The notes under the pieces: generated by a model
Database searches by the model: none
What the model was told of the DNA's origin: nothing
The model's input: the letters and a program-made list of their open reading frames with translations, nothing else
Program-made: the position numbers and the translations under genes
Shown here: piece after piece, positions 21,182 to 39,950 of the stretch
How the letters are laid out: each line of letters begins with the position of its first letter
How positions within the stretch are numbered: the first letter of the stretch is position 1
DNA from: a virus
Direction: 5' to 3' (one strand)
DNA length: 43,268 nt
Virus record (IMG/VR): IMGVR_UViG_3300027857_000032
Location: 1 to 43,268 of that record

Positions 21182-21230
21182 CCGGTAGGGCATAGATTAA
21201 GCGCCGAACCGTGACGGGCTTCCACGGGTG
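21168..21230 (+). promoter_or_regulatory. Late leader hairpin A with candidate promoter
   Basis: The 26-nt leader core spans 21205-21230. Its stem is CCGTG (21209-21213) with CACGG (21223-21227) around loop ACGGGCTTC. Upstream, TTGCGA (21168) and CATAGA (21191) could be -35/-10 at 17 bp spacing, putting the transcript start near the hairpin. Copies lie at 26090, 32925 and 39926. It precedes the exported-protein gene at 21260. Confidence 0.6.
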
Positions 21231-21259
21231 TCCAGACCGCTTTCCCTGGTGCCCGTCCT

Positions 21260-21658
21260 ATGTTGTTCCGGTTCCTCCTTTCCCTTTTGTTGCTGGTTCC
21301 CGGTGTCGCCTTTGCTCAACAGGCGGTCACCACTGGTAGAACGACCTACCAGGGAACTATCATCCTCCCCGCTGGTCAAAGCACCCCACTGACAGCCGCC
21401 AACGTGACCATGAGCCCAGGCTCTGGCGCGTTGCCGCAGCCCGGCTCGTTCGGGCGATTGACCTTCATCGCACCAGGAAGCGGCTGCCAATTCACTGTCA
21501 ACTGGGGCGGCGGAATTGCGACGGCGACCTCAGGCGAGCAGTTCGGCGGGTCGAACATCAGCAGCGACACGGTCGATCTGACCGGCCAATTAAACGCTCC
21601 GACGGTGTTCTCCACGTCGGGTTGCTCGTCGCCCAATCTAGTTCAATTTCGTAACTAA
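21260..21658 (+). CDS. Exported protein with Sec signal peptide
   Basis: A 132-residue protein. Residues 1-19 are a textbook signal peptide (basic start, leucine core, then VAFAQQ) with cleavage expected after AFA. The mature part is beta-rich and carries two cysteines (GSGCQ and SGCSS) that could form a disulfide in the periplasm. It is the first gene after leader A and lies 11 bp before a larger exported protein. Its role is unknown. Confidence 0.7.
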   Translation: MLFRFLLSLLLLVPGVAFAQQAVTTGRTTYQGTIILPAGQSTPLTAANVTMSPGSGALPQPGSFGRLTFIAPGSGCQFTVNWGGGIATATSGEQFGGSNISSDTVDLTGQLNAPTVFSTSGCSSPNLVQFRN

Positions 21659-21669
21659 AAGGTTAGCCG

Positions 21670-24198
21670 ATGCTTCTTCGCACACTCGCTGCGCTCTTCT
21701 TTATTGCCTTCGGGTCAGCCGCTCTGGCGCAGGTTGGCCAAGGGCCAACGCCGCCGATTGCTGTGCCCAACAACGGCGGAACATACCCAAACGGCTTCAC
21801 GATCACCGGCTCGTCCTATTACGCCAGGGACCCGCAATATGGGAATTGCACATGGTCAACGGCTGGTGGTGCGGATGCTGGCCCATGTATCAATGCAGCA
21901 ATAACGGCGGCAGCTACAGCGGGCGGCGGGACCATCATGCTGCCGTCCGGCAGCTTCAACGTCGCTACGACAATTATCAATGGCACCAGCGGCGTCCACA
22001 TTCAGGGCGCTGGCGTTGGCTACATCCGGGATAGCAACACGCCAAGTGCCTTTGTTCCAGTAACGCGATTGATCTGGACCGGGACAGCGGGCGCGACGAT
22101 GTTTATCGAAACGCCGTCGGGAAGTCGATCTCTCTACTCCGTAGATGTATGGGGCGTCACCTTCGACTGTGCCTCGCGTGCGAACATCTGCGCTGAATTT
22201 CAGGCGGTTAGCACTTCCTTTATCAATATCGGCGCATCCGAGCCGCGCACCATCGGCGTATGGTTTACGACGCTTTCTTCGTCCTTCGCGGATGGCCCCG
22301 GCAGCCAGGACAATGACATCTGGCTCCAAGCTCGCTCAACTTCAGCTTCGTTTTCTCCGACCGGTATATTGTTCGACGGCGCAGCCACATCTTCCTTCGA
22401 TTCATCGGTCAACCGCATTCATATGATGCTGGTATGGCTGGCCAAGGGCGATGGCATCGTTATGGGCTACAGCGACCATAACTATATTGAGACAGCGATT
22501 ACTTACTATGATCCGGTTAACCAGGGCGGCACGGCGATGGTCTTCGCTAACTCGCTCTATGTGCAAAAGAACGGCATCGCCGTTGCGGGTCAATCAAACG
22601 AGAACCGCCTTTATCAGAACGAGACCGTAGCGGATGTTAATGGGCTCTGGAACGGCTCGGCCATTACGCCGGGAACGCATACTGGTTCCGAAGCGGTTAC
22701 CACCCTTACAGCGACGCTGACCAGCCCGACACCCAATCTGTCGCAGACTCTTACGGTCTCTGGTGGTTTTGGCAACGTCGTCGCTGGGATGACCGCAAGT
22801 TGCTCGCCCAATGGCTTCTGCGGGATCATCGCGGGCAATCCCGTGACGGCGATCAGCGGCACCACGGCGACACTCGGTTCGCAGACCAACGGCATCACCA
22901 ACGGCACCGTCATCACGTTCAGCTACGGCGTCACGCAATATGCAGTGCCCGGCACTTACACGCTGACATTCACTGGCGCCACGACAGCCAACTTAACTGC
23001 TCCCTCGGGTGGTCATACGCAGACCGGCATTACACTGACGAATGGAAATCTGGTGTTCACCGACATGGTTATTCCATTCTCTGGGACGCCAGCGAACAAT
23101 GACACATACACGATCGTTGTCCCAACGCCGCCGAAAAATACCCAAATCCTCAATACCGACAAGGGAAACAGTGTTCCCAATCCGACGATTGAGCCTGGTT
23201 CTGGGTTAACGACATTCGTCTCAACCACGGCGTCGCCCTTTACGTCCAACTTCACCAACACAGCATACACACCGAGTTCCCCTGTTCTGGTCAGTGCACT
23301 TCCTGCAACTGCTGTTCAGGTTCGCTTTATTTTGACTGGACAAGGTGGCTGCGGCGGCGGCGGAGCAGCGATCGCTGCTTCTGGATCGGGATCGGGTGGT
23401 GGCGGCGGTGGTGGCGCAGGGGTTTTCGATACCGGCTGGTTCCCTGCTTCCTATGTTTCCGGCAACTACACGATTGCTTTTGGCACGCAATGCACAGCGG
23501 CATCGGCAGGCGCGAGTGGCGGTGCTGGCGGTAATACAACGTTAGCTATGTCTGGACTTGGCGGCGGTGGCAGCAACACCATCACAGCATTTGGCGGGGG
23601 TGGAGGCTCTGTAGGCGCCAATGGTGGTGCATCCGGAGGAGGCGGTGGTGGCGGCACCATTGGCGCGGGTTCATCTACCACTAATGGCACAGGCGGGGGC
23701 GCTGGTAACTTCGGCGCAACTGCTGGTGGCTCGGGGATCGGGGGCACAAACAACACTGCGGGTGGCCTCATAGGAATTGGTGGGTCAGGCGGTGGGGGTG
23801 CCAGCGCAACCGGTGTGATCGGCAACGGCGGGTTCTCGGAATATGGTGGATCAACTGGTGGTGGATCGGGTGGTGGTTGTAACGCAGGCGCGGCTTCAGT
23901 AGGCGGTTTCGGCTACGCACCCATTTATCTGAACCACGTAGGAGGCGGCGCGAACACCGGTGGCGCCGGCGTCCCCGGCATTGCCGCCGCAGCCAACGGT
24001 TCCGGTGCGGGAATTGGCGGCGGCGGTGGTGGGGGCGGAGGCGGTAATTCCGGCACGTCTACAGTCGGTGGCGCTGGTGCAGCGGGTGGCCAGGGAGGCG
24101 GCGGCGGCGGAGGCGGCGGCTCGGCTTGTGGGAATACCACAACCGGCGGCGTTGGCGGCGTTGGTGGAACGCCTCAAGTAATTGTTATGACACAATGA
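21670..24198 (+). CDS. Tailspike-like beta-helix protein with signal peptide and glycine-rich C-terminus
   Basis: An 842-residue protein. Residues 1-20 form a signal peptide ([20 protein letters not shown]). Residues ~60-340 look like a right-handed beta-helix of the pectate-lyase type ([29 protein letters not shown]). Residues ~340-540 resemble Ig-like strands. From ~550 on it is a glycine-rich domain with runs such as [11 protein letters not shown], which in phage fibres folds as packed polyglycine helices. It resembles an adhesin or tailspike, but cytoplasmically assembled spikes do not carry signal peptides. No catalytic site is obvious. Confidence 0.75.
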
Positions 24199-25097
24199 GC
24201 TTCGGCTTTCCGGTTCTCGGCCTCTCCAATCTATCGGCGGCGGGCACCCAGCAGGCCGATGCCGCACCCATCACACGGCAGTTCAACGAATTCACCAGCG
24301 TGCGTTCCGGCACTGGCTGTCGGCTCCCGGCTGTCGTCAACACTGCCATCACCATCCTGAACAACGGCGCCAATACCCTCCTGATTTACCCGTCGAACGG
24401 CGATCGGATCTTTGGCCTCGCGGTCAACGCGCCGTTGTCTCTGGTGGCAGGCGAGACGGTGTTGATCAATTCGACCGACACCCCTTTGGCCTATCAGCCG
24501 CGGGTCTGGTATCTGAAGGTCGGCGCTCAGGGTGTTGCCGGAGCCACGGGCGCGACGGGTGCGACAGGCCCTACGGGGCAGTCATCGAGTGTGCCGGGAC
24601 CCACCGGTTCGGTCGGCCCGACAGGCCCCACGGGACCCACCGGGCCGACGGGGTCAGCCTCCACGGTGCCAGGGCCAACCGGCGCAACCGGTGCAACTGG
24701 CGCGACCGGGGCGACCGGGCCGACGTTCTCTCAGTCGATCACCAACGTCACGACTACGGCGGGCGGCACGATCACCCTGTCTCCGACCGTCGGGATGGAC
24801 GTCGTGCTGACCATGCCGACCACGGGCGGGACGATCACCCTGAACGTCGGCACAGTGGCAACGCGCCAACGAGTGCTGCTCGATGTCATCAATGGTGCGA
24901 CGTTGGGCACCGTTGCGTTTCAGGCTGGTTCGACCGCAGCGGCTGGCTTCCTGTTCTCGGCCTCGCTGCCAAGCAGCAGCTACACCGGACAGGCACCGAA
25001 CACGACGGATAATCTGACCTTCATCGCGCCCGGAACCGTGGCCGGCAACACGAACCTGCTCCGGTTCGAAGGCCTGAACGTGGGCTTCCCAGTCTGA
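24195..25097 (+). CDS. Collagen-like tail-fibre protein
   Basis: A 300-residue protein starting [24 protein letters not shown]-coupled to the previous gene. Residues ~1-115 are a beta-rich domain of phage-fibre type. Residues ~118-182 are Gly-X-Y repeats ([27 protein letters not shown]) that form a trimeric collagen helix. The C-terminal ~115 residues are beta-rich, possibly a trimerising tip. It lacks a signal peptide, unlike its upstream neighbours, and is likely a virion fibre. Confidence 0.8.
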
Positions 25098-26047
25098 TGC
25101 CGACCGTCGTCGTCTTTCTGACCACACCCGGCACTGGGACGTTCACCATACCCAATGGCTGGACTTCAGCGACCTTCGAAGCGATCGGCGGCGGTGCGGG
25201 CAGCGGCAATGGCGCTGGCAGTTTCGGCACTGGCGGCGGCGGTGGTGCGTATTCCAAGAAGAATTCGATCGTCGTTTCCCCAGGAGTTGTGTGCAACTAT
25301 AATGTTGGCGCAGGCGGGACCCCTGGGTTAGGCAATTCCGCTGGCGATAGCTGGATCGCTCTGAACAACACGGCGACCAATATCAACAGTGCTGGCGTTG
25401 TCTGCGGAGCCAAAGGTGGCACGACCGGAGCATCGTCAGGTTCGGCAGTTCTGACCGGCCAGGGCGGCCAGGCATCGGCCGGCGTGGGCGATGTCAAATT
25501 CTCCGGCGGTAATGCAGACGCTCACAGCGTTCTGTGGTCCTGTTCAGGCGGTGGCGCAGCCGGCCCCTTCGGCAACGGCGGCACTTCTGGAATACCCGAT
25601 TCAACCGGTGGCGGTGCAGCAGGCGGCGGCGGCGGTGGCGGTGGAGGCAGCAACGGCGGCACCGGGAATGGCAGCACTGGCGTCGGTGGCGTCGGCGGCA
25701 ACAACCATTTGGGAACGGGCGGAGGCTCGTCGGGAACAGGTGGCGCGGCACCCGGCAACGGAACCAACGGCGGCGGCGGCGGTGGCGCGGCCAATAACGG
25801 CTCTGTGCCATCCGCTGGTGGCAACGGCACGGAATGGGATGCCTCCCACGGCTCAGGCGGCGGTGCTGGCGCTCCATCGGGACCCTCGGGAGCAGCCGGC
25901 GCTGGTGGCCTCTATGGTGGCGGCGCGAGCAGCACATCTGGTGGAACACCGGGAGCACAACATGCCGGGGCGCAGGGCATCATCGTTGTCACCGGAACGA
26001 TCGGCACCGACCTCCGAGACCTGATGTTCTTCAACACCCAGTTCTGA
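25097..26047 (+). CDS. Glycine-rich tail-fibre protein
   Basis: A 316-residue protein. The first ~50 residues (TTPGTGTFTIPNGWTSATFE) match the start of glycine-rich phage fibre domains. The remainder is very glycine-rich ([20 protein letters not shown]) with a terminal strand (AQGIIVVTG). It is clearly related to the C-terminal domain of the 842-residue protein. Such domains form sheaves of polyglycine helices in receptor-binding tips. Its start shares a base with the collagen-like gene stop. Confidence 0.75.
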   Translation: MPTVVVFLTTPGTGTFTIPNGWTSATFEAIGGGAGSGNGAGSFGTGGGGGAYSKKNSIVVSPGVVCNYNVGAGGTPGLGNSAGDSWIALNNTATNINSAGVVCGAKGGTTGASSGSAVLTGQGGQASAGVGDVKFSGGNADAHSVLWSCSGGGAAGPFGNGGTSGIPDSTGGGAAGGGGGGGGGSNGGTGNGSTGVGGVGGNNHLGTGGGSSGTGGAAPGNGTNGGGGGGAANNGSVPSAGGNGTEWDASHGSGGGAGAPSGPSGAAGAGGLYGGGASSTSGGTPGAQHAGAQGIIVVTGTIGTDLRDLMFFNTQF

Positions 26048-26050
26048 TGA

Positions 26051-26115
26051 TTGACCATTTCGTCGTCGGCGGTGTTATTGTCACCGGGCCGAACCGAGAC
26101 GGGCCTCCTCGGGTG
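26051..26115 (+). promoter_or_regulatory. Late leader hairpin B with candidate promoter
   Basis: Core 26090-26115. Stem CCGAG (26094-26098) with CTCGG (26108-26112) around loop ACGGGCCTC. TTGACC (26051) and GTTATT (26074) could be -35/-10 at 17 bp. The central stem pair is A-T here and T-A in copies A and C. It precedes the portal gene. Confidence 0.65.
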
Positions 26116-26144
26116 TTCCAACGCAGTAACGCGGTTTCCCGAAA

Positions 26145-28496
26145 TTGGCCCAAGATCCACTGAAGCCCAAGGACAACGGCCGCATCCGTATGCCGCGGCC
26201 CGATGTGGCGATGAACAAGATCGCCCCGAGCTTCGGTCTGCCCGACAAGAAGGGCACGATGCTGGGCTACGACGAGGACGGCGACAGCAAAGAGAAGATC
26301 CTTGAGACCATGCGCAAACGCATGGAACAGGTCATCTCAGCCGAAGCCGAGAACCGGAAGTCCGGTCTTGACGACAAGATGTTCCTCGCCGGCAATCAGT
26401 GGCCGACCGAGGTCATGGCCCAGCGGAACCTGGACAAGCGGCCCTGCCTGACCATCAACAAGCTGCCGACGTTCGTGGCCCAGGTGGTCAACGGCCAGCG
26501 CGAGAACCGGCCGAGCATCAATATCAGCCCAACCGGCGATATGGGCGATCCCGAGGTCGCCAAGATGTATCGCGGCCTGATCCGGTTCATCGAGAGGGAT
26601 TGCCACGCCGACGGTGCCTATGACACCGCGTTCGACGATGCCGTCACGATGGGCTGGGGCTACTGGCGGATCATCACCGACTACGAGGCACCGGATACCT
26701 TCGACCAGATCATCCAGATCAAGCGGGTCCGTAACGCCTTCACCGTCTACATGGACCCGATGTGTCAGGACCCCACGGCCGCTGACGCAAAATGGTGCTT
26801 CATCAGCGACATGATCCCCCGCGAGGAATTTCGCGACCGGTGGCCCGATGCGGTCGAAGTCCCGTTCAATGACGCCGGTATTGGCGAGAAGTATCAAAGC
26901 TGGGCAACGAAAGACGAAATCCGCATCGTTGAGTATTTCGTCATCAAGACCGACAAGCGGAAGCTCGTAAAGCTCAGTAATGGGCATGTCGGCTGGGAAG
27001 ACGAACTTGACGAGTTCACCAAGGCCCGGATCAAGCGCGGCACGCAACTCTGGGTCGAGGAAGAGCGCGAGAGCGAAGTGCCCAAGGTCATGTGGTATAA
27101 AGCCACGGCCGTGGACATCCTCGAAGAGAGCGAGTGGATCGGCACCACCATTCCGGTCATCCGGGTCATCGGCAATTCGATCGACATCGAGGGCAAGCTG
27201 AAGCTGTCCGGCCTGATCCGGCACGCCAAAGACCCGCAGCGGATGTATAACTACTGGAAGACGTCGGAAACCGAACTGATTGCGCTCCAGCCCAAGAGCC
27301 CCTGGATCGTCGAAGAGGGCCAGATCGAAGGCCACGAGGACGAGTGGAAGAACGCCAACGTCAAGAACCAGCCGTATCTGAGCTACAAGGGCACCAGCAT
27401 CGGCAACACGCCGGCTCCGCCACCGCAGCGCCAGCCCATGGCCGGCATCCCTCAGGGCGTCGTCCAGGCCTCCGCAGGCGCGGCCCAGGACATGATGGCG
27501 GTCACCGGTATCCGGTTCGACGCCACCCAGAACGAGCGGATGATCGACGAGAGTGGCAAGGCGATCCGGGAACTGCGTCGTGCCGGCGACATCGGCGCCG
27601 CCCACTACGTGGACAATCTGGCCCAGTCGCTGCGCCGCTGCGGTGAGATGCTGGTCGAGATCATCCCCAAGATTTACAACGAGCGCCGGGTAGTCACCAT
27701 TCTCCGGGAGGACGACAAGGAAGAGCAGGTCCGGGTCGATCCGAACCTGATGAAGCCGACCGGTGAGGAACCGAAGCGCGACGGCAAGAAGCGCAAAATC
27801 TTCAACCCGACCTTCGGCAAATACGGCGTCACGGTGACGATCGGCCCGAGCTACGCGACCAAGCGGATCGAGGCCTCCGAAAACATGATGGCGTTCATGC
27901 GGGCGCTGCCCAACACCGCGGCGCTGGTCGCCGACCTGCTGGCGGCCGAGCAGGACTGGCCGGGTGCCGAGAAGATCGCGGCCCGGTTGGCGAAGACCAT
28001 CCCGCCGAACCTGATGGCACCCGAGATGCAAGGAGTCCCGCCGCAAATCCAGGCCTTGCTTCAGTCGCAGGACACCCAACTGAAGGCGCTGAACGAGCAG
28101 CTTCGCCAGGCCATGGCCGCGCTCCAGGACAAGAACGCCGACCGCGCCATCGACATGGACAAGATCCAGAAGACCTACGAGGTCGCTCTGCTCAAGATCG
28201 TGGCCGACACCGAAACCAAGATGGCGAAAATCCAGGAAGCGGCGATCGCCAACGTCAACACCCACCTGACCGCCCAGATGCAGGCCCTCGGCAAGGGCGC
28301 GGCCGAACTGGGCAAGTCGGTAGAGAGCGCCATGGCCGCCAACGACGAGGCGGAACAGGAACAGGCGAAGACTGAGCCGCCACCAGAGGCGCTGCAACAC
28401 CTGAAGCCGGGGCGAGTGACCCGTTTTGCGAATGGTCAGTCTTGGACTATTAAAGACGGAGTTCCGACAAAGGTGGGTGGAAACGACGCAGTATGA
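26145..28496 (+). CDS. Portal protein, P22 type
   Basis: A 783-residue protein forming the dodecameric DNA entry ring at the capsid vertex. The N-terminal ~450 residues carry the P22-type portal pattern (DDKMFLAGNQWPTEV, RPCLTINKLPTFVAQVVNGQ, MGWGYWRIITDYE). The region 440-520 covers the wing/stem. From ~640 on it is a long coiled coil, comparable to the P22 barrel. TTG at 26145 is the start as read; ATGs at 26190 and 26211 are alternatives, none with a strong ribosome-binding site. It is preceded by leader hairpin B and overlapped by a NUMOD3/HNH gene. Confidence 0.9.
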   Translation: MAQDPLKPKDNGRIRMPRPDVAMNKIAPSFGLPDKKGTMLGYDEDGDSKEKILETMRKRMEQVISAEAENRKSGLDDKMFLAGNQWPTEVMAQRNLDKRPCLTINKLPTFVAQVVNGQRENRPSINISPTGDMGDPEVAKMYRGLIRFIERDCHADGAYDTAFDDAVTMGWGYWRIITDYEAPDTFDQIIQIKRVRNAFTVYMDPMCQDPTAADAKWCFISDMIPREEFRDRWPDAVEVPFNDAGIGEKYQSWATKDEIRIVEYFVIKTDKRKLVKLSNGHVGWEDELDEFTKARIKRGTQLWVEEERESEVPKVMWYKATAVDILEESEWIGTTIPVIRVIGNSIDIEGKLKLSGLIRHAKDPQRMYNYWKTSETELIALQPKSPWIVEEGQIEGHEDEWKNANVKNQPYLSYKGTSIGNTPAPPPQRQPMAGIPQGVVQASAGAAQDMMAVTGIRFDATQNERMIDESGKAIRELRRAGDIGAAHYVDNLAQSLRRCGEMLVEIIPKIYNERRVVTILREDDKEEQVRVDPNLMKPTGEEPKRDGKKRKIFNPTFGKYGVTVTIGPSYATKRIEASENMMAFMRALPNTAALVADLLAAEQDWPGAEKIAARLAKTIPPNLMAPEMQGVPPQIQALLQSQDTQLKALNEQLRQAMAALQDKNADRAIDMDKIQKTYEVALLKIVADTETKMAKIQEAAIANVNTHLTAQMQALGKGAAELGKSVESAMAANDEAEQEQAKTEPPPEALQHLKPGRVTRFANGQSWTIKDGVPTKVGGNDAV

Positions 28497-30388: not shown

Positions 30389-30463
30389 TGGGGCATAGCA
30401 TAGTGGCCAGTGCTCCGGTCCTGCAAACCGGCGACCAGGGTTCGAATCCCTGTGCCTCCACCA
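30389..30463 (+). tRNA. tRNA-Ala(TGC)
   Basis: Acceptor (T)GGGGCA / TGCCTCC with A73 and encoded CCA. The third pair is G3-U70, the alanine identity element. Anticodon arm CCGGT-CCTGCAA-ACCGG gives TGC with C instead of T at position 33. T arm CAGGG-TTCGAAT-CCCTG is standard. The first pair (T1-C72) is mismatched. Confidence 0.75.
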
Positions 30464-30466
30464 TAG

Positions 30467-30514
30467 ACTGATTGGATAGTGACCGCTCTTGCGGGGAGGC
30501 ACTGTCCAATCAGT
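30467..30514 (+). ncRNA. Long hairpin between tRNA-Ala and tRNA-Gly
   Basis: ACTGATTGGATAGTG (30467-30481) pairs along all 15 positions (one G-U) with CACTGTCCAATCAGT (30500-30514). Inside is a second short stem, CCGC-TCTT-GCGG. It begins 4 nt after the tRNA-Ala CCA and ends 6 nt before tRNA-Gly. It may guide precursor processing or be a small RNA; no T run follows. Confidence 0.5.
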
Positions 30515-30519
30515 TCAGT

Positions 30520-30594
30520 GCGGCGTGTGCGCGATGGTTTGCGTCCCTCCTTGCCAAGGAGGATCACCGGGTTCGATTCCCGGCTGCCGCTCCA
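30520..30594 (+). tRNA. tRNA-Gly(GCC)
   Basis: Acceptor GCGGCGT / CTGCCGC, T73 (usual for glycine), encoded CCA. Anticodon arm CCTCC-TTGCCAA-GGAGG gives GCC; T arm CCGGG-TTCGATT-CCCGG is perfect. The last acceptor pair is a mismatch. Confidence 0.88.
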
Positions 30595-30597
30595 GAT

Positions 30598-30693
30598 AGC
30601 GGGCGTTGGCCCAGGCGGGCGGGTGCGCCTTATAAGCGCGCGAAAGCAGGAGATGCCTGCGACGGCAGGGTTCGACACCCTGGGCCGCTTCCA
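30598..30693 (+). tRNA. Class II tRNA, apparent anticodon TAT (or ATA)
   Basis: A 96-nt tRNA with a long variable arm (stem GCAGG / CCTGC), as in Leu, Ser and Tyr tRNAs. The best-paired anticodon stem TGCGC/GCGCG gives loop CTTATAA and anticodon TAT (Ile codon AUA), which does not suit a class II tRNA. Shifting by one gives ATA (Tyr) with four pairs. T arm CAGGG-TTCGACA-CCCTG and encoded CCA are clear; one acceptor pair is a mismatch. Confidence 0.65.
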
Positions 30694-30780
30694 TTCTAGC
30701 CCCAGCCGTCTTACCACGTTCTATCCAGTTTGCGGACCTGACCGGCTGGACCTTGTGAACGGATGTGGGAGGCTGGAGCA

Positions 30781-30954
30781 ATGACACCGATCAAAGACGC
30801 CACTGAGGACATGCTGAAGTCGGTCGAGGAATTGAACGCAAAGAGCAGGAAATACCGGAACGAAGGACTGCCGTTCAGCTTCGTCGCCGATCCGGCAGAG
30901 GACGGTGTCGTCGGTGTGCAAGTGCCGGTCGGCCGATTTACGTTTGGCGGGTAG
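30781..30954 (+). CDS. Unknown small protein overlapping tRNA-Gln
   Basis: A 57-residue protein starting MTPIKDATEDMLKSVEELNA, with GGAG upstream. It has an amphipathic N-terminal helix followed by strands (LPFSFVADPAEDGVVGV). Its last codons and TAG stop lie inside the 5' acceptor and D region of the tRNA-Gln, so one RNA cannot serve as both full mRNA and processed tRNA. Not recognised. Confidence 0.6.
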   Translation: MTPIKDATEDMLKSVEELNAKSRKYRNEGLPFSFVADPAEDGVVGVQVPVGRFTFGG

Positions 30955-31016
30955 CTCAGGGAGCAAATCGCGTTTTGAGCGCGATAAGGTGGGTTCGATC
31001 CCTACACCCGCTGCCA
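30946..31016 (+). tRNA. tRNA-Gln(TTG), short D loop
   Basis: Acceptor GGCGGGT / ACCCGCT, G73 and weak first pair (G1-U72), both glutamine-like; CCA encoded. Anticodon arm TCGCG-TTTTGAG-CGCGA gives TTG. The D arm is GCTC-AGG-GAGC with only three loop bases, so total length is 71 nt. T arm GTGGG-TTCGATC-CCTAC. Confidence 0.8.
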
Positions 31017-31019
31017 ATT

Positions 31020-31094
31020 GCCCCATTCGACCAGTGGTCTGGGCATCCGGCCTTCACCCGGAGGGTGAGAGTTCGATCCTCTCAGGGGGCACCA
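31020..31094 (+). tRNA. tRNA-Glu(TTC)
   Basis: Acceptor GCCCCAT / AGGGGGC with A73 and encoded CCA; one mismatch at pair six. Anticodon arm TCCGG-CCTTCAC-CCGGA gives TTC, with C rather than T at position 33. T arm GAGAG-TTCGATC-CTCTC is perfect. Confidence 0.8.
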
Positions 31095-31131
31095 TTGACC
31101 ACCAGAGACGAGGCTGCATATATGCCGGCAG

Positions 31132-31202
31132 GCGCGATCCGCCGAGCGGCCCACGGCCTTCAATCCAATGGGAGACGAGTTTGACCCTCGTATCGCGCAC
31201 CA
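31132..31202 (+). tRNA. Degenerate tRNA with unclear anticodon
   Basis: Acceptor GCGCGAT / ATCGCGC is perfect, with A73 and encoded CCA. The D stem GCCG/CGGC and T stem ACGAG/CTCGT are good, but the T loop is TTTGACC. The anticodon stem does not pair well in any register; the best gives loop ATCCAAT (CCA, Trp) with one mismatch and no variable loop. It is probably decaying or has a non-decoding role. Confidence 0.45.
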
Positions 31203-31295
31203 TCCGGCTTCACGACTTCTGAATTACATCCGGCTACCGGACCTCCGACCATGAGCATGACGCTCTTTTGCCTGCTCATAAAACGGAGAAATCAG
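31203..31295 (+). other. Spacer between degenerate tRNA and helical-protein gene
   Basis: A 93-bp gap with CCGGCTACCGG-type short palindromes and a small in-frame ATG run (from 31251) that could extend the following gene. Nothing else recognised. Confidence 0.3.
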
Positions 31296-31652
31296 ATGTC
31301 GCTCGCTTACCTGAAGGTCAAAATCAAGTCGCTCGCCGCTGAGGCGAGAATAATCCGTCACGAGGAAGAGGTCTGGCGCCACCGGGAGACCGACAAGGGC
31401 CGGCCGACGTTCTTTGGACTGCGCTCACACCGCAAGCTGGACGTCCGCACCGAGGCCCGCGCTGCCCAATTGGCCTATGCCTTCCTGCGAGGCCGGCCGT
31501 ATTCGCACACCGAGCCGACCGGCAAGGACAACGGCGGTCGCCAGAGCAACCCGATTGCCTGGAATCGGGTGATGAAGCTCGCGGCCAAGTATGGTCCCAA
31601 TCGCAACCTTGAATGGGACACCGTCAGGGAATGGGCCGATCCGAAACAATAA
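31296..31652 (+). CDS. Unknown helical protein inside the tRNA island
   Basis: A 118-residue protein from the ATG at 31296 (GGAGA upstream). It begins MSLAYLKVKIKSLAAEARII, is basic and helical throughout, and contains the segment HREEE-like charged stretches and an aromatic C-terminus (LEWDTVREWADPKQ). Its stop lies one base before the tRNA-Arg(ACG). Not recognised. Confidence 0.65.
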   Translation: MSLAYLKVKIKSLAAEARIIRHEEEVWRHRETDKGRPTFFGLRSHRKLDVRTEARAAQLAYAFLRGRPYSHTEPTGKDNGGRQSNPIAWNRVMKLAAKYGPNRNLEWDTVREWADPKQ

Positions 31653-31653
31653 C

Positions 31654-31728
31654 GCCCCTGCCGCTGGTCTAGCGGAACCTGCTCTACGAAAGCGGGATTC
31701 GGTGGTTCGATTCCACTCAGGGGCTCCA
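31654..31728 (+). tRNA. tRNA-Arg(ACG)
   Basis: Acceptor GCCCCTG / CAGGGGC, T73, encoded CCA. D arm CCGCT/AGCGG; anticodon arm CTGCT-CTACGAA-AGCGG gives ACG with the standard arginine loop. T arm GGTGG-TTCGATT-CCACT. Decodes CGU and, if deaminated, CGC/CGA. Confidence 0.85.
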
Positions 31729-31730
31729 CT

Positions 31731-31801
31731 GGGCCATCCGCTGGGCCGGGCAGGGTCTTCTACACCCAAGACGGGGGGTTCAATTCCTCCATGGCTCACC
31801 A
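31731..31801 (+). tRNA. tRNA-Arg(TCT), short D arm
   Basis: Acceptor GGGCCAT / ATGGCTC, A73, encoded CCA. Anticodon arm GGGT-CTTCTAC-ACCC gives TCT with a five-base variable loop. A competing register (GTCTT/AAGAC with an eight-base loop) leaves only one variable base and is less likely. The D arm is reduced; total length is 71 nt. Decodes AGA, a rare codon in GC-rich hosts. Confidence 0.7.
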
Positions 31802-31804
31802 AAT

Positions 31805-31879
31805 CTCCCGGTAGCACGATGGACGTGCAGCGGCCTCCGAAGCCGAAGGGTATGGGTTCGACCCCCATCCGGGAGTCCA
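31805..31879 (+). tRNA. tRNA-Arg(CCG)
   Basis: Acceptor CTCCCGG / CCGGGAG (perfect), T73, encoded CCA. Anticodon stem CGGC/GCCG with loop CTCCGAA gives CCG (codon CGG). T arm ATGGG-TTCGACC-CCCAT is perfect. Confidence 0.85.
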
Positions 31880-31885
31880 GATATT

Positions 31886-31961
31886 GCGCGACTAGCCCAC
31901 CGGCAGAGGCAACGGCTTCAAAACCCGTCAAGGCTCGGTTCAAGTCCGAGGTCGCGCACCA
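31886..31961 (+). tRNA. tRNA with anticodon CAA but class I shape (Leu?)
   Basis: Acceptor GCGCGAC / GTCGCGC (perfect), A73, encoded CCA. Anticodon arm ACGGC-TTCAAAA-CCCGT gives CAA (Leu UUG), with a C-C mismatch closing the loop. The variable loop is only five bases, whereas leucine tRNAs have a long arm. T arm CTCGG-TTCAAGT-CCGAG is perfect. Charging identity is uncertain. Confidence 0.7.
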
Positions 31962-31969
31962 ACTGAAAA

Positions 31970-32044
31970 GGCCGACCGGTCGCCCGATCGGCCCTCCCAG
32001 GAGGCATCCCGCCACCTACCGTATTGCCGGGGCGGAACGGTAGG
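31970..32044. other. Two hairpins between tRNA genes
   Basis: This gap (31962-32133, 172 bp, no gene) has GGCCGA/TCGGCC around 31970-31993, and an 8-bp inverted repeat, CCTACCGT (32015-32022) with ACGGTAGG (32037-32044). I see no tRNA in it; processing signals or a decayed tRNA are possible. The remaining 32045-32133 shows nothing I can name. Confidence 0.4.
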
Positions 32045-32133
32045 CACCCCACTATCCCATGACGCGCCTCGCGTAGGGGTTTCACCCACTGCTTTGGTTA
32101 ACGCCATCCGGTGACGACTGAATAACAGACTTT

Positions 32134-32214
32134 GGGCCAGATGCGATCACTGGTGTGCGCGGCGGTCTCTTAAACCGTGTCAATGGTTGGGTTCGATTCC
32201 CACCTGGCCCTCCA
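32134..32214 (+). tRNA. tRNA-Lys(CTT)
   Basis: Acceptor GGGCCAG / CTGGCCC (perfect), T73, encoded CCA. Anticodon arm GCGGT-CTCTTAA-ACCGT gives CTT. The T stem has one mismatch and the variable loop is eight bases, longer than usual for lysine, so length is 81 nt. Confidence 0.75.
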
Positions 32215-32218
32215 CTTT

Positions 32219-32293
32219 GCCGGCGTCATTCAATGGTAGGATGCGGCCCTCGTAAAGCCGCTATGACGGGTTCGATTCCCTCCGCTGGCTCCA
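32219..32293 (+). tRNA. tRNA-Thr(CGT)
   Basis: Acceptor GCCGGCG / CGCTGGC, T73, encoded CCA. Anticodon arm CGGCC-CTCGTAA-AGCCG gives CGT with a C-A pair next to the loop. The T stem has only three good pairs. Decodes ACG. Confidence 0.7.
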
Positions 32294-32881: not shown

Positions 32882-32884
32882 GAC

Positions 32885-32950
32885 TTGACGCAAGGGAATC
32901 CAATACATTAGAGAGCGAACTATTCGGACCGTGACGAGCATCCACGGGTG
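32885..32950 (+). promoter_or_regulatory. Late leader hairpin C with candidate promoter
   Basis: Core 32925-32950. Stem CCGTG (32929-32933) with CACGG (32943-32947) around loop ACGAGCATC. TTGACG (32885) is a good -35; the matching -10 near 32907 is weak (ATTAGA). It precedes the scaffold gene. The loop differs from copies A, B and D, the stem does not. Confidence 0.65.
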
Positions 32951-32984
32951 ATGGAATCCAAAATGACCGGGATATTCACCACTC

Positions 32985-34238
32985 ATGGCGCTTGCCGCTC
33001 GTCCGCAACACGACATCATCTTCAATCCTTCGATCCCGTTGGCTGCAACTTCAGATGCACCCTTGGCCGAGATTGTTCGGCCACCCGAGTCAGCTTCAAA
33101 TGATCAGGGCGACCAGACTGCCGGCGTCCCGAAAGAGATATCGCCTGAAGAGGCAGCACTCGCAGCCGCGGCGCGCAAAGGCGATCCTGCTACAGCCGAA
33201 CTGACCGAGGACGGCAAAGAGAAGCCGGTCGATGCGAAGGCGAAACCCGACGAGGGCAAGCCGGACGAGGACGACGGCATCCAGGTCGATGAGAACGCGC
33301 CTTTCGCCTTCAAGAAGCAGGTCGCCGACATCCGCAAGAAGTCTGCCGAGCGTGTGCAGGCTATCCGTGATGCGGCCAAGGCCGAGGTCGGCGACGAGAA
33401 GTGGGACAAGGCCTGGGAAGCTGCCAACGCCAATGTCGTCGGCAAGTTCCGTGACGAAGTGAAGGCGGCCAAGGCCGAGGCGGCACGTGTCGCCAGGGAG
33501 AAAGAGGCGGTTGCGGCCGAGCGGGAAGCGCTCGCAGCGAAAATCGCCGAACTGGAGGCTGCCAGACCTCGCGAAGAGCCGAAGGCGGACCCACGGCCAG
33601 CCCGTGAAGACTTCGACGACCCGGATCTGTTCGCTGAAGCATTGGTCGCCTGGGGCAAGCGCGACCAGCAACGCGAAATCGAAGCGCAGCAGGCGGCCGA
33701 GAAGGCTGAAGCCGATCGCATCGCCGCTGAGAAAAAGGCCGAAGAGGACAAGAAGGCTGCCGAGGAGCAGGAAGAGGCGGTTCGTGAAGAGAACGCCAGG
33801 ATTGCGCTCGATTGGCAGGCCAAGACTGCCGCCGCTCAGGAGAAGTATGGCGACTACGAAGAGATCGTGATGCGGTCGCCGGCCGACGGCGGCCCCACGG
33901 TGACCGAGATCATGGCACAGGCCATGACGCGCACCGACAACGGTCCCGACGTCGCTTATTGGCTCGCCCTCAATCCCGAGGAATCGGTGAGGATCGCCGA
34001 GCTTCAAAACCCAATCCTTCAATACGGCGAGATCATGAAGATCTCCGGTCGTTTGTCCGCGCCAACGGCCCGGACGCGCACCCGTATCCCAGCGCCGATC
34101 AAGCCGATCGACGCCACCCGAAACGAACCGGTTCAGACCAATCCCGACGATGAGGACATGGACAGCTACTACAAGCGGCGCACACAGGCGACCTTGGCAG
34201 AGCGGCGTCCATTCTTCCCGAACGGCGGCCTGCACTGA
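32985..34238 (+). CDS. Scaffolding-like protein
   Basis: A 417-residue, highly charged protein directly upstream of the coat gene. Residues ~20-95 are acidic and disordered; ~100-285 are long Ala/Glu/Lys coiled coil (AAEKAEADRIAAEKKAEEDK); the C-terminal third ends basic (YYKRRTQATLAERRPFF), like the coat-binding end of P22-type scaffolds. It should direct procapsid assembly and leave before or during packaging. An ATG at 32964 in another frame is not used. Preceded by leader C. Confidence 0.82.
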   Translation: MALAARPQHDIIFNPSIPLAATSDAPLAEIVRPPESASNDQGDQTAGVPKEISPEEAALAAAARKGDPATAELTEDGKEKPVDAKAKPDEGKPDEDDGIQVDENAPFAFKKQVADIRKKSAERVQAIRDAAKAEVGDEKWDKAWEAANANVVGKFRDEVKAAKAEAARVAREKEAVAAEREALAAKIAELEAARPREEPKADPRPAREDFDDPDLFAEALVAWGKRDQQREIEAQQAAEKAEADRIAAEKKAEEDKKAAEEQEEAVREENARIALDWQAKTAAAQEKYGDYEEIVMRSPADGGPTVTEIMAQAMTRTDNGPDVAYWLALNPEESVRIAELQNPILQYGEIMKISGRLSAPTARTRTRIPAPIKPIDATRNEPVQTNPDDEDMDSYYKRRTQATLAERRPFFPNGGLH

Positions 34239-34242
34239 CCCA

Positions 34243-34347
34243 CCCGCTTCGGCGGGGATGACTACCATCGACCCGCTACGGCGGGGTTTTGCCTACCTAC
34301 CTCACCCGCCACGGCGGGGTTTCAGACCGCACCCGGAACGGCCGGGG
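34243..34347 (+). repeat. Four tandem YNCG-type hairpins between scaffold and coat
   Basis: CCCGC-(4 nt)-GCGGG stems start at 34243, 34272 and 34305 with loops TTCG, TACG and CACG; a fourth, CCCGG-AACGG-CCGGG-type, starts at 34332. Spacing is 27-33 bp. The second and third are followed by TTTT/TTT. This gene-free 160-bp stretch ends with AAGGAG before the coat GTG. Attenuation, RNA processing or transcript stabilisation are possible. Confidence 0.7.
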
Positions 34348-34398
34348 ACATCATCAGTGAAACCTTGTCAGTCGCCCTGATAGGCGAAGGAGAATTCC

Positions 34399-35595
34399 GT
34401 GGCTGCGAACGCACTTCTGACGCCTGCCTTGATCACCAAGGAGACGTTGACCATCCTGACGAACAACCTGGTCGCAGCGGCCAAGGTCAATCGTCAGTTT
34501 GAAAACCAGTTCGTGAAGATCGGCACCACCCTGACGGTGCGTAAGCCGAACCGCTTCACTGTGACCCTGGGGCCGGCGCTCCAGATCCAGGACATCACCG
34601 AGCCCTCAACGTCGATCTCGATCTCGACGCAGGCTCACGTGGACTTCCAGTTCAGTTCTCAGGAACTGACGCTGACCATCGAGGAATACAGCGAGCGGTA
34701 TTGCAAGCCAGCCGCCGAAACCCTGGCCAACACCGTCGATGTGTCCCTGCTTCAGTTGTTCAACCAGATCAACAACGAGGTCGGCACTCCCGGCTCACCA
34801 CCGGCTGCCTTCTCGTCGATCGCCGCGGTTGGTCAGCGCATGGACGAAAACGCAGCACCGCAGGACGGCCGCACGCTGATCCTGAATGCCGCGGCCTACT
34901 GGTCACTGGCGAACGGCGTGTCGAACCTGTTCACCCGTTCGGTTGCCGAACCGGCGCTCAAGGGCTTCCTGGCCGTGATCGCCAACTTCGAAATCTACCT
35001 GGATCAGAACGTCCAGGCTCAGACCGTCGGAGCTTACGCCGGCACTGGTGTTGTCAACGGCGCCGGTCAGACTGGTTCCCAGATCGTCACCAACGGCTGG
35101 ACCGCTTCGATCACCGGCCTGTTGAACGTCGGCGACGTCGTCAACTTCACTGGCGTGCACAACGTGAACGCACAGCCGGGACCGAACGGGTTCATTTCGA
35201 CCGGGACCTTGCAGGATTTCGTTATCACTTCGATCACCAACAGTGACTCGGGTGGCAACGCGACCCTCAACATCTCTCCGGCGATCACCATCAGCGGCGC
35301 CTATCAGAACGTGGATGGAGCACCGGCCAACGGTGCGGCGATCACCGTCAAGGGCTCTGCGAGCACGTCATACTTCCAGAACATCGCATTCACCCGCGAT
35401 GCCTTTGGTCTCGTGTGTGTGCCGATGGAGCTTCCGGGCGGTGTCGATTTCGCAGCACGGCAGATGTACCGCCAGATCTCGATGCGTATCGTTCGAGCCT
35501 ATGACGTGTGGAACGACGTCACCCCATGCCGTATCGACATTCTTTACGGCGTGAGCACGTTCTATCAGCAGCTTGCCTGCCGGTTGACCAACTGA
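34399..35595 (+). CDS. Major capsid (coat) protein, P22 type
   Basis: A 398-residue protein with a GTG start (AAGGAG upstream). The N-terminus NALLTPALITKETLTILTNN and the E-loop-like IGTTLTVRKPNRFTV match P22 coat-type proteins of the HK97 fold. An insertion domain with NVGDVVNFTGVHNVN at ~240-265 corresponds to the telokin-like I-domain of P22. It ends with the conserved DILYGVSTFYQQLACRL-type segment. It forms the icosahedral shell with the scaffold upstream. Confidence 0.9.
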   Translation: MAANALLTPALITKETLTILTNNLVAAAKVNRQFENQFVKIGTTLTVRKPNRFTVTLGPALQIQDITEPSTSISISTQAHVDFQFSSQELTLTIEEYSERYCKPAAETLANTVDVSLLQLFNQINNEVGTPGSPPAAFSSIAAVGQRMDENAAPQDGRTLILNAAAYWSLANGVSNLFTRSVAEPALKGFLAVIANFEIYLDQNVQAQTVGAYAGTGVVNGAGQTGSQIVTNGWTASITGLLNVGDVVNFTGVHNVNAQPGPNGFISTGTLQDFVITSITNSDSGGNATLNISPAITISGAYQNVDGAPANGAAITVKGSASTSYFQNIAFTRDAFGLVCVPMELPGGVDFAARQMYRQISMRIVRAYDVWNDVTPCRIDILYGVSTFYQQLACRLTN

Positions 35596-37036: not shown

Positions 37037-37048
37037 TCGAGAACAACG

Positions 37049-37081
37049 AAGGGGGTCGGTGCTGCCGGCCCCCTTCTGTTT
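37049..37081 (+). terminator. Strong intrinsic terminator
   Basis: AAGGGGGTCGG (37049-37059), loop TGCTG, CCGGCCCCCTT (37065-37075), then CTGTTT. An 11-bp stem with one G-U pair. It closes the coat/decoration transcription unit. Confidence 0.85.
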
Positions 37082-37129
37082 GACATGACTCCGTGAGCAG
37101 AGGGCAGGAAGCGGACAGTCAAGGAGCAA

Positions 37130-37834
37130 ATGATGTTCGTTCTGTTCGCTACACCCTGCTTGAGTGCCAAAGTCGATCTCGATTATTTCAGTTCGTATAT
37201 TCACACCAGTGTGGCGTTGAGCCAGCGTGGGATTGCCCACACCGTGCGTCTCCAGGCTGGGATTTGCTTTATCGACCACGTGAGAAACGTGCTCTGCCAC
37301 CAGTTCCTGCATGAATTCCCGGACGCGACCGACCTGTTTTTCATTGACGATGACCTGGGCTGGCCGTCGGATGGCGTGCTTCGGTTGCTGGACCGCAAGG
37401 AAGACATTGTCGGCGGCGTCTACCCGCTGAAGCAGGACCCGATCGGGTTCCCGATCTCGCTGGAGACCGACGGCAACCGCAAACTGGTCGAGAAAAACGG
37501 TCTGGTGGAGGCGGTGTTCCTGCCGACCGGTTTCATGCGGATCAAACGGCACGCAATCGAATTGATGGCCGCCGATCAGCCGACCTACCCGCATCACCGG
37601 GCCGATGGGGTGTGCGACCACATCAAGAACATCTTCCACACCGGGTATTACGAGGGCCAGCGCTGGGGCGAGGACGTGGACTTTGCCAACCGGTGGCGGG
37701 CCAAGGGCGGCCGGATGTGGGTCGATCCAGAGATTACCCTGAGCCACCTAGGGCGGAAACGGTGGACCGCCAGCTTTGCGCCGGCTGTGGAAATGGCGAA
37801 GCAGAAACTCGCTGAAACGGAACCTGCAACATGA
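37130..37834 (+). CDS. Third glycosyltransferase-like protein
   Basis: A 234-residue protein with AAGGAG before an ATGATG start (second ATG at 37133 is better spaced). DLFFIDDDLGWPSDGVLRLL near residue 70 is a GT-A DxD-type site; GEDVDFANRWRAKGG near 180 is the acidic motif of the acceptor side, followed by an SHLG histidine. It resembles small phage GT-A proteins. It lies between decoration and connector genes, so virion glycosylation is conceivable. Confidence 0.75.
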   Translation: MMFVLFATPCLSAKVDLDYFSSYIHTSVALSQRGIAHTVRLQAGICFIDHVRNVLCHQFLHEFPDATDLFFIDDDLGWPSDGVLRLLDRKEDIVGGVYPLKQDPIGFPISLETDGNRKLVEKNGLVEAVFLPTGFMRIKRHAIELMAADQPTYPHHRADGVCDHIKNIFHTGYYEGQRWGEDVDFANRWRAKGGRMWVDPEITLSHLGRKRWTASFAPAVEMAKQKLAETEPAT

Positions 37835-38067
37835 AAGCACCGAAGAAGGGCAAGTCAAAGGGCGGCAACGCACTGATGACGATGGGAGCGCCGATGCCAG
37901 CGCCGATGGAAGACGAAATGAAGTGGAAGGCGCAGGACGCGCTGAGCACCCTGAAGCGGGCGCACGAGATCAAGAACGATCCGCATCTGATGGCGCACGT
38001 CCACAAGCACGCTCAGACCGAGAAAGAGGCTCTGGGCAAGATCATTGGCAGGAAGAAGAAAGCATGA
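37831..38067 (+). CDS. Small basic protein
   Basis: A 78-residue protein with lysine-rich ends (APKKGKSKGG and IIGRKKKA) and a central helix (DALSTLKRAHEIKNDPHLMA). It is ATGA-coupled to both neighbours. It resembles small phage proteins encoded before head-completion genes. Role unknown. Confidence 0.65.
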   Translation: MKAPKKGKSKGGNALMTMGAPMPAPMEDEMKWKAQDALSTLKRAHEIKNDPHLMAHVHKHAQTEKEALGKIIGRKKKA

Positions 38068-38639
38068 CCCGTGAGTCAGAATTCCGCTCGTTTGCCGCGA
38101 AGCATGAACTGACCGATGCCAGGTTGGACGGTGACAAGGTGTTCATCAGCGTCGCCGACTACTGGAAGTGGGCCAATCGGGCTGCCGCGTCGTTCGTCAG
38201 ACCCGCATCCGAATTCGCTGGTTTCCTGCACGAGATCGATGGATTTCAAATCTATGTGGACGCCGAACTGGCCGGCACAGGTTTGACCGTGGCGTCTCCG
38301 CAGTGGCTGACCGACGCACTCCAGACCTTGGCTGGTCAGGATCACGAGGAAGGCAGGAAAAAAGCATGGATCGAGGCGATCAGCATTGCCCGGCGAAACT
38401 GTGAGGGCTTTGTTGTCCGTTCGTATAATATCATCACAGATCATTTCGACTGGCAATTTGGCAATGGGCGCTGGCCGCGATTGATCGACCCCAAAACCAG
38501 CGAGCCGTTCACCGATGACCCGATGCGTGATCAGCGTGATGACGTCCCGGTTGCTGAATTCATGACCTATCTGAACGATTGGTATTTTCCGCAGCGCAAG
38601 GCGCTGCATTGGATGACCCCCGAAAAGGCTGACGTATGA
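38064..38639 (+). CDS. Unknown protein
   Basis: A 191-residue protein from the ATG at 38064. It has aromatic-rich segments (SVADYWKWANRAAASFVR, HFDWQFGNGRWPRLI) but no motif I can assign, no membrane segment and no signal peptide. Virion or adapter functions fit the position; overlapping starts and stops tie it to both neighbours. Confidence 0.65.
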   Translation: MTRESEFRSFAAKHELTDARLDGDKVFISVADYWKWANRAAASFVRPASEFAGFLHEIDGFQIYVDAELAGTGLTVASPQWLTDALQTLAGQDHEEGRKKAWIEAISIARRNCEGFVVRSYNIITDHFDWQFGNGRWPRLIDPKTSEPFTDDPMRDQRDDVPVAEFMTYLNDWYFPQRKALHWMTPEKADV

Positions 38640-39517
38640 TCGACCAAACCGCACAAAGAACGATGCAGGTCCCAGGAGCGGGCATTATCCCCGCGGGCAG
38701 ACCCACCATCGACTACAAAGAATACCCGAAGATGATGACGCACCCTCAGTATCGGCCGGGTAAGCCGAGCCCTGAGATCAAGTCGCCGCACGGGTTCACC
38801 TATCATGGTATTGGCGAGCCGGTGCGGTTTCCCCCGGTGCTGGTGAAGACAAAGCAGGACGAGGAATATCACGCCTCGCTCGGCTACGAGAGCCAGGGCA
38901 AGTGCGATGCGGCCGCGTTTGACCGTGCCGTCGGCGCCGGCCAGATCCCGCAGGAGGTCGCACACAAGCCGCTGGAATACCCAAAGTGGGTGCTGGGCAA
39001 GCTCTGTGCCAACGCAGAGGAAGAGCAAAAGGTGCTCGGCGGCCCGACCATGGCTCAGATCGTGGCGGAGAATACTGAGCCAGCACTCAGCGAAGAGCTT
39101 AATTCTCTTTCGGAACCGGCCCTCAACACGGCGGCGCCTACGTCATATGGGGTCAAGACCCTCGACCAGCTTCGCATCGAAGACCTGGAAGCGAAGGTTG
39201 ATAAGCTGGTCGGCCTTGATTCCAAGGTCGATAAGTTGGCCGTCCTGATGGAGAAGGCCCTCGGTGCGCTGGAAAAGATGGACGGCCCACCGCACGACCG
39301 CGAATATGAATCCACCTTCCATCGCGTGGCGGCAGCGGCAGAGGCTGAAGTGAAGCAGCGCACACCACCCGCGAAGAAGAAGCGCAAGCCAGTCGTCCGG
39401 ACCGCGCAACAGAAGCGCGACCACTCCGAGGCGATCAAGGCGGGGCTCGCTCGGCGCAAAGCGCAATTGACCGAATCCATCCCAGCCGAACAGGGTGGCG
39501 ACGCCCCGGTTCAGTGA
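38636..39517 (+). CDS. Unknown virion-region protein
   Basis: A 293-residue protein starting MIDQTAQRTMQVPGAGIIPA. The first ~140 residues are a mixed domain; residues ~175-215 are a heptad-like coiled coil (EAKVDKLVGLDSKVDKLAVL); the end is basic (PPAKKKRKPVVRT) and ends with a SEAIKAGLARRKA helix. It is the last gene before a terminator. Not recognised. Confidence 0.65.
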   Translation: MIDQTAQRTMQVPGAGIIPAGRPTIDYKEYPKMMTHPQYRPGKPSPEIKSPHGFTYHGIGEPVRFPPVLVKTKQDEEYHASLGYESQGKCDAAAFDRAVGAGQIPQEVAHKPLEYPKWVLGKLCANAEEEQKVLGGPTMAQIVAENTEPALSEELNSLSEPALNTAAPTSYGVKTLDQLRIEDLEAKVDKLVGLDSKVDKLAVLMEKALGALEKMDGPPHDREYESTFHRVAAAAEAEVKQRTPPAKKKRKPVVRTAQQKRDHSEAIKAGLARRKAQLTESIPAEQGGDAPVQ

Positions 39518-39559
39518 TGCGTCCGGGGTTCTTGGACGTTTTTTCCTCCCTAAACTAAA

Positions 39560-39588
39560 ACCGCCGGGGTAATTGCCGGCGGTCTTTT
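39560..39588 (+). terminator. Intrinsic terminator, possibly bidirectional
   Basis: ACCGCCGG (39560-39567) and CCGGCGGT (39576-39583) form a stem flanked by AAAA before and CTTTT after. It lies in the 87-bp gap after the gene ending at 39517. Confidence 0.8.
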
Positions 39589-39604
39589 CCCCCAAAGGGG
39601 CAAC

Positions 39605-39913
39605 ATGGCGGAATCGATGGAAAACAACCGGTCTCGGTTGCGTCGTCTCCGTGCTGCCAATCCTGGCTGGAGCACCGACAAAAACGCCAAATGGAACGCT
39701 GCCAACCCAGAAAAGCGGCAGGCTCACAAAGCGGTGGAATATGCGCTCAGGAGCGGCAAGCTCGTAAAGCAGCCGTGCGAGCGCTGCGGAGCCACTGACT
39801 CGGTCCACGCACACCATGATTATTACTCGAAACCTCTGGAGGTTCGCTGGCTTTGTCCAACCGACCACCGGCAGCGTCATCGAGAACTGGCGAATTTGGC
39901 CGAAGCTGCGTAA
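39605..39913 (+). CDS. HNH-like zinc-finger protein
   Basis: A 102-residue protein. Residues 1-50 are basic and helical (LRRLRAANPGWSTDKNAKWN). The C-terminal core CERCGATDSVHAHHDYYSKP followed by RWLCPTDHRQRH has the two cysteine pairs and histidines of an HNH/zinc-finger nuclease often found as a free-standing phage gene. It stands alone between a terminator and the next late leader, as an inserted gene would. Confidence 0.78.
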   Translation: MAESMENNRSRLRRLRAANPGWSTDKNAKWNAANPEKRQAHKAVEYALRSGKLVKQPCERCGATDSVHAHHDYYSKPLEVRWLCPTDHRQRHRELANLAEAA

Positions 39914-39950
39914 ACTGACACCAGCCGGACCGAGACGGGCCTCCTCGGGC
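39887..39950 (+). promoter_or_regulatory. Late leader hairpin D with candidate promoter
   Basis: Core 39926-39950, stem CCGAG (39930-39934) with CTCGG (39944-39948), loop ACGGGCCTC as in copy B. Possible -35 CTGGCG (39887) and -10 GTAAAC (39910) are weak. It precedes the gp4-like connector. Confidence 0.6.

Follow-up and report, generated by a model that had tools for sequence, protein, structure and literature searches.

The viral record IMGVR_UViG_3300027857_000032 of IMG/VR (43,268 nucleotides [nt]; the window below means this whole stretch at its full length) belongs to an uncultivated group of P22-like phages that share a family of two-hairpin leader RNAs in front of virion operons. The first hairpin, P1, is common to all these leaders. 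The second, P2, starts in most leaders within the 3′ arm of P1 (CGGG) and pairs with the Shine–Dalgarno (SD) sequence and the spacer before the start codon, so that the ribosome-binding site (RBS) is predicted to be occluded. On balance, and with considerable reservation, we favor the interpretation that these leaders are a cis-acting RNA family in which P1 is bound by one trans-acting factor that tunes the opening of P2 and thus co-regulates the translation of virion proteins.

A pattern search of the window found CGRACCGWGACGRGCNTCCWCGGG at 21205, 26090, 32925 and 39926, all on the plus strand; no fifth match turned up in the window when as many as 3 mismatches were allowed, and 100 dinucleotide shuffles gave none. 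The four copies thus lie exactly where the first-pass annotation, made from this DNA alone, had placed them, far beyond chance expectation. What had been described there as a 26-nt hairpin is a conserved block of that length, within which the hairpin proper occupies 19 nt:

21205..21230, plus strand, conserved block of copy A, with the P1 hairpin at 21209-21227
26090..26115, plus strand, conserved block of copy B, with the P1 hairpin at 26094-26112
32925..32950, plus strand, conserved block of copy C, with the P1 hairpin at 32929-32947
39926..39951, plus strand, conserved block of copy D, with the P1 hairpin at 39930-39948

The reported switch in the stem holds as well, copies A and C having CCGTG/CACGG and copies B and D CCGAG/CTCGG, and so do the genes named downstream, namely those for an exported 132-amino-acid (aa) protein, the portal, the scaffold and the gp4-like adaptor, with start codons 51-60 nt after the copies.

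For comparison, we used IMG/VR contigs encoding portal or adaptor proteins related to those of the window; the scaffold protein, when used as the scan query, yielded a single relative that was too diverged. Most P1 copies came from pattern and mismatch searches in which the variable stem pairs were not required to match, and the total, including leaders located by orthology, is about 38 P1 leaders in 11 related records. The search of relatives, on which the first-pass annotation had staked its proposal, therefore yielded about 34 further copies in 10 related records. The general form of P1 is A-CCGnn-loop-nnCGG-G. Over 14 seed sequences, 100% of the stem cells are paired, with 12 double changes; pair 4 occurs in all four Watson-Crick types (GC6/UA4/AU3/CG1) and pair 5 in three (GC10/CG2/UA2), so that covariation is stronger than originally stated. 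The covariation score is 0.488 versus 0.078 for shuffled alignments, and 0 of 500 shuffles reach the observed value. A scan in which the variable stem bases were left free recovered further copies, each one of them paired, including the new types C-G and G-C, and a mismatch scan of 49 portal loci detected diverged copies that occupy the same position ahead of the portal, scaffold and adaptor genes. A covariance model detected P1 copies at E<=1 in 15 of 24 records, and the strong copies of each phage lay on a single strand. When structure, −10 box and orientation were combined, 31 matches were obtained on the late-gene strand of 11 records and 0 on the opposite strand; the same strict promoter-plus-hairpin scan gave 0 matches in four P1-free relatives, and control hairpins gave 2 and 1. 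When viral contigs were scanned more loosely, for just the −10 and CGGG together with the first half of P1, the loop and the stem partners being free, 21 stretches were obtained, among which those with a paired stem near a start codon were the known members and one new phage (G024/G025). The whole record of the latter yielded additional P1+P2 leaders with P2-type hairpins around the start-codon region. The window has no DNA relatives among phage isolates, and promoter-linked P1 is absent from the four distant phage isolates inspected.

P2 was not part of the first-pass annotation. It overlaps P1 by 2-5 nt in nearly all leaders and, in the window, was assigned as follows:

21224..21256, plus strand, P2 of copy A, ACGGGUG.CCAG/CUGGUGCCCGU, reaching into the P1 3′ arm and ending 3 nt before the ATG at 21260 (p 0.027)
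26109..26142, plus strand, possible P2 of copy B, weak and not above shuffles (p 0.17)
32946..32984, plus strand, P2 of copy C, directly before the ATG (p 0.023)
39945..39968, plus strand, P2 of copy D, UCGGGCUAA/UUAGCUCGG (p 0.003)

Counterparts in relatives include CGGGUGUCUC/GAGAUACCCG before the ejection gene of G005, CGGGCAUC/GAUGUCCG before the adaptor gene and CCGGGCA.CUC/GGAG.UUGUCCGG before the ejection gene of G016, and GGGUAUC.../GGAGAUACCC before a TTG start in the new phage; ejection-protein leaders missed by the strict pattern likewise hold both hairpins. Across 26 leaders, the gain from pairing the P1 arm with the downstream tail, compared with dinucleotide-shuffled tails, has a mean z of -1.4 and a Fisher p=4.9e-11, a value that overstates the strength of the signal because the leaders are related by descent and not independent. 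The pair types of P2 vary in step, with TG, TA, CG and AT at G24+1 and GC, GT, AT, CG and TA at G24+2, and in six scaffold leaders 93.6% of P2 cells are paired versus 43-58% when the pairing is slid, with four double changes. Predicted RBS openness is 0.28 in P1 leaders versus 0.45 in 163 other genes of the same phages (p=3.5e-8). The leaders thus show the structural side of an RBS-occluding cis RNA, a predicted 5′ leader structure, backed by comparison, that pairs the SD and start region; copy B is unsupported in this respect. The stability of P2 ranges between leaders from about -5 to -20 kcal/mol. Despite the shared nucleotides, the P2 core is compatible with P1 in most leaders, and since the energies of the two P1/P2 arrangements are usually within a few kcal/mol of each other, the junction appears poised. 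Pairing of the P1 loop with the SD/start spacer into a pseudoknot was also considered and rejected, given that such duplexes were no better than those of shuffled loops (Fisher p=0.08).

The two hairpins differ in how they are conserved. The identity of P1 is 0.757 across operons within genomes versus 0.680 for the same operon across genomes, whereas the 30 nt after P1 show the reverse, 0.393 versus 0.492; the within-genome excess is significant for P1 (permutation p=0.0005) and absent from the downstream part (p=0.61). Because P1 is alike within genomes and the P2 region is alike per operon, the leaders can be described as modular, with a recognition part common to all operons and an expression platform specific to each gene, and the concerted evolution of P1 fits what a common trans-acting ligand would produce. 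The idea of a shared 5′ RNA element serving stability, translation control or binding by one protein, with which this work began, hence gains support from the further copies, the compensatory pairs, the sense-only orientation, the RBS hairpin and the concerted behavior of P1.

P1 follows closely on sigma-70-like −10 elements. A TANNNT box lies 8-16 nt 5′ of the P1 stem in 19 of 29 leaders versus 3% of random positions, and the −10 is often of the extended type (TGCTANNNT). Copies A and B have the arrangement TTGNNN-19-TANNNT and copy D has CTGGCG-18-TAAACT, whereas the scaffold leaders share TTGACG-17-TTAGAG/CTAACT in place of TANNNT. The TTG-like −35 reported for all four copies is accordingly only approximate: TTG is found in A, B and C, and CTGGCG in D. 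A strict consensus promoter scan listed none of the P1 promoters of the window, which are approximate sigma-70 matches only.

21193..21198, plus strand, −10-like TAGATT of copy A
26076..26081, plus strand, −10-like TATTGT of copy B
32885..32913, plus strand, promoter of copy C, TTGACG-17-TTAGAG, kept in orthologs
39911..39916, plus strand, −10-like TAAACT of copy D

Judging from the usual distance between −10 and +1, the RNA would begin 0-5 nt before the conserved block, and the start codons of all leaders lie 51-66 nt after the first base of the block.

All genes behind P1 that could be identified encode virion proteins, and many of them open their operon; a few leaders precede genes without an assignable name. 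The genes concerned in the window are:

21260..21658, plus strand, exported 132-aa protein of operon A, no Pfam family
21670-24198, plus strand, exported 842-aa protein of operon A, after the 132-aa gene, no Pfam family
26145..28496, plus strand, P22-type portal protein with a TTG start, behind copy B (phrog_156, E=1.8e-132)
32985..34238, plus strand, head scaffolding protein behind copy C, operon C (phrog_8865, phrog_283)
34399-35595, plus strand, major capsid gene of operon C, after the scaffold gene
39977..40717, plus strand, gp4-like head-tail adaptor behind copy D (phrog_12985; 'tail adaptor' / 'head completion adaptor')

In relatives, P1 leaders precede the genes for the portal, scaffold, adaptor, DNA-ejection protein (phrog_598) and tail lysozyme (PF18013), as well as for exported proteins and for a small protein with a tail-collar fibre (PF07484) encoded next to it downstream. 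The start codons behind several leaders are weak or unusual (TTG, GTG), and apparent ATT, ATC and CTG starts were observed, despite good SDs, in G007 (ejection gene) and in G015 and G004 (adaptor genes), the orthologs of which have ATG. The major capsid gene lacks a P1/P2 leader and is served by a strong SD of its own. The region before it (34233-34398) holds 3-4 short tandem GC hairpins (ACCCGC..GCGGGG, then ACCCGG..CCGGGG) and a hairpin adjoining the strong AGGAG SD of this gene; in relatives, the gap before the capsid gene contains ACCGG..CCGGG hairpins and often a mini-open reading frame (MTTII*, MITNS*, MTATTQ*). Six tRNA genes lie between the portal and scaffold operons of the window (30389-32290), along with genes of the homing/HNH endonuclease and methyltransferase types; some of the isolate relatives inspected have the portal and scaffold genes side by side or nearly so. 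Upstream of copy D, the stretch 39496-39597 matches the alphaproteobacterial suhB/mmgR small RNA of Rfam with 25.2 bits, below the gathering threshold of 41, and includes an intrinsic-terminator-like hairpin with a T run (39519-39549); it could encode a small RNA of the phage and is a hint that the host is an alphaproteobacterium.

In the mechanism that we favor, P1 would lie at or within a few nt of the 5′ end of the mRNA, near-identical across the operons of one phage, and P2 would close the RBS by default, gene by gene. One RNA-binding factor, of phage or host origin, would land on P1 and alter the ease with which P2 opens, thereby setting the translation of all virion operons together. We infer the transcript start, the existence of the factor and the sign of regulation, be it that of an activator or of a feedback repressor, from sequence. 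Several observations weigh against this interpretation. The similarity of P1 within genomes could stem from recent copying between operons rather than from a ligand. P2 exceeds shuffles in copies A, C and D of the window and fails to do so in copy B, which precedes the portal gene, and in several other portal leaders, and the common descent of the leaders, as said above, inflates the combined P2 statistic. In silico removal of the P1 5′ arm leaves the predicted RBS accessibility without change (0.283 versus 0.305, p=0.07). The role of P1 as a simple anti-sequestor was rejected, as no gain in RBS accessibility is predicted; because removal of P1 in silico neither opens nor closes the RBS, any switch must be supplied by a P1-bound factor, the ribosome or co-transcriptional timing.

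The alternatives differ chiefly in the level at which P1 would act. It is rather unlikely that P1 is a 5′ stabilizing hairpin against RNase E/RppH-type decay and that P2 passively lowers initiation gene by gene, to match low-copy virion parts to the major capsid protein, with no trans-acting factor involved. The start of P1 some 0-5 nt from the predicted transcript start would suit a stabilizer, and tuning of single genes would agree with the weak or unusual starts in several leaders (TTG, GTG and, in three relatives, ATT, ATC and CTG) and with the capsid gene, which is needed in hundreds of copies and has a strong SD without P1/P2; yet the scaffold, which P22-type assembly also needs in large numbers, is led by P1/P2, and neither the P1 loop, kept within a genome and different between genomes, nor the overlap of P1 with P2 is explained. 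Late operons of lambdoid phages are controlled by antitermination, and with one P1 per late promoter, immediately 3′ of it, P1 might load an antitermination complex on RNA polymerase for long late operons in the manner of put or nut. We regard this as improbable: P1 is far smaller than put RNA, there is no boxA, the consistent closure of the RBS by P2 would not be needed, and the start codon remains close by in spite of varying gene order and operon length.

A DNA element, either an inverted-repeat operator or an initial-transcribed-region signal for a phage transcription factor, appears very improbable. P1 is indeed an inverted repeat beside the −10, and symmetric arm changes keep the palindrome; against this stand a stem position that takes all four types of pair, the asymmetric loop, the sense orientation of 31/31 matches and the second pairing with the RBS, which is sensible in RNA alone. 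Conserved, orientation-independent half-sites typical of DNA operators were not found, the arm positions being variable and the orientation strictly sense. The sense-strand restriction and the RBS hairpin continuing from the P1 3′ arm argue for RNA and translation as the level of action. A thermosensor, in which P2 would melt with temperature and P1 would serve as a folding nucleus, is the least credible proposal: many leaders do have hairpins over the SD that are 5-10 pairs long and contain bulges and G-U pairs, but the overlap is very GC-rich, the spread of P2 stabilities is unlike a common melting point, and no reason is known why phage virion genes should respond to temperature.

A weak candidate for the P1-binding factor contemplated in the favored mechanism is encoded upstream of operon A:

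18918..19199, plus strand, 93-aa protein with an N-terminal zinc ribbon (C6, C10, C18, C21; CX3CX7CX2C) and a long C-terminal helix

The zinc-ribbon part is found in 10 of 10 P1-bearing records that cover the locus and in no P1-free record; two P1-free records hold just the C-terminal part. This is the sole window protein with a part confined to P1-bearing phages, and its structural model consists of a small zinc site and a long helix (mean predicted local distance difference test score 86.6, predicted template modelling score 0.47). The P1-bearing phages are monophyletic (100/100 in the portal tree, 87/96 in the capsid tree), so the co-occurrence amounts to a single event and is weak evidence for the 93-aa protein as the partner of P1. 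That one phage RNA-binding protein, possibly this one, switches the whole virion regulon, replacing late-promoter switching, with promoters of host type, is a possible but on the whole doubtful extension. Another candidate, an 89-aa protein with an Arg-rich motif (19583-19852), was rejected because it is present in P1-free relatives too. A giant protein of 3436 aa in a related phage (L119:3058-13368), with homologs in five other P1-bearing records, is a DarB-like antirestriction protein; its interpretation as an N4-like virion RNA polymerase reading hairpin promoters was rejected on this ground.

RBS-occluding leaders and phage operators bound by proteins are already known. The MS2/R17 replicase operator hairpin and the targets of T4 RegA and gp32 are translational operators bound by a phage protein. 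Like P1/P2, they are short hairpins near the RBS of a phage gene that block initiation; unlike them, P1 is predicted to lie at the 5′ terminus of the mRNA as a hairpin distinct from the one at the RBS, though overlapping with it, and it recurs in front of many virion operons in a double-stranded DNA podovirus. Translational riboswitches and ribosomal-protein leaders likewise join a conserved recognition part to a variable SD-sequestering part through shared nucleotides, whereas P1, with just 4-5 base pairs, has no metabolite-binding fold and evolves in concert within a genome instead of being conserved between genomes. The HK022 put RNA and lambda nut are also short RNA structures directly 3′ of phage promoters; P1/P2 differ from them in size and sequence, lack boxA and are linked to the RBS. 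No boxA-like conserved block was found in the leader sequences of the window and its relatives, which match neither the boxA/boxB nor the two-hairpin put consensus. In P22, the scaffolding protein (gp8) autoregulates its own translation, so that here too a capsid assembly gene is controlled after transcription, but gene 8 is the only one concerned, whereas P1/P2 are common to portal, adaptor, ejection, lysozyme and fibre operons. The lambda cIII RBS RNA is bistable, with two alternative structures around the RBS, which P1/P2 may resemble; unlike the latter, it serves one gene and has no shared 5′ hairpin. In an Rfam search, tRNAs alone reached the gathering threshold and no family covered P1/P2, no description of such a shared-hairpin leader element was found in the papers searched, and we know of no previous account of a virion regulon in which one common 5′ hairpin is linked, operon by operon, to RBS hairpins that are specific to each gene.

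Tailed phages are usually considered to control their late genes by means of new sigma factors, through RNA polymerases of their own or by antitermination. If the interpretation favored here is correct, the coordination of virion synthesis in these phages would move to translation, and the leaders would constitute a natural modular riboregulator with a common recognition part and an interchangeable output part. Across the genomes of a large group of uncultivated phages, P1 marks the late operons, and it is a precise target in the search for the RNA-binding factor.

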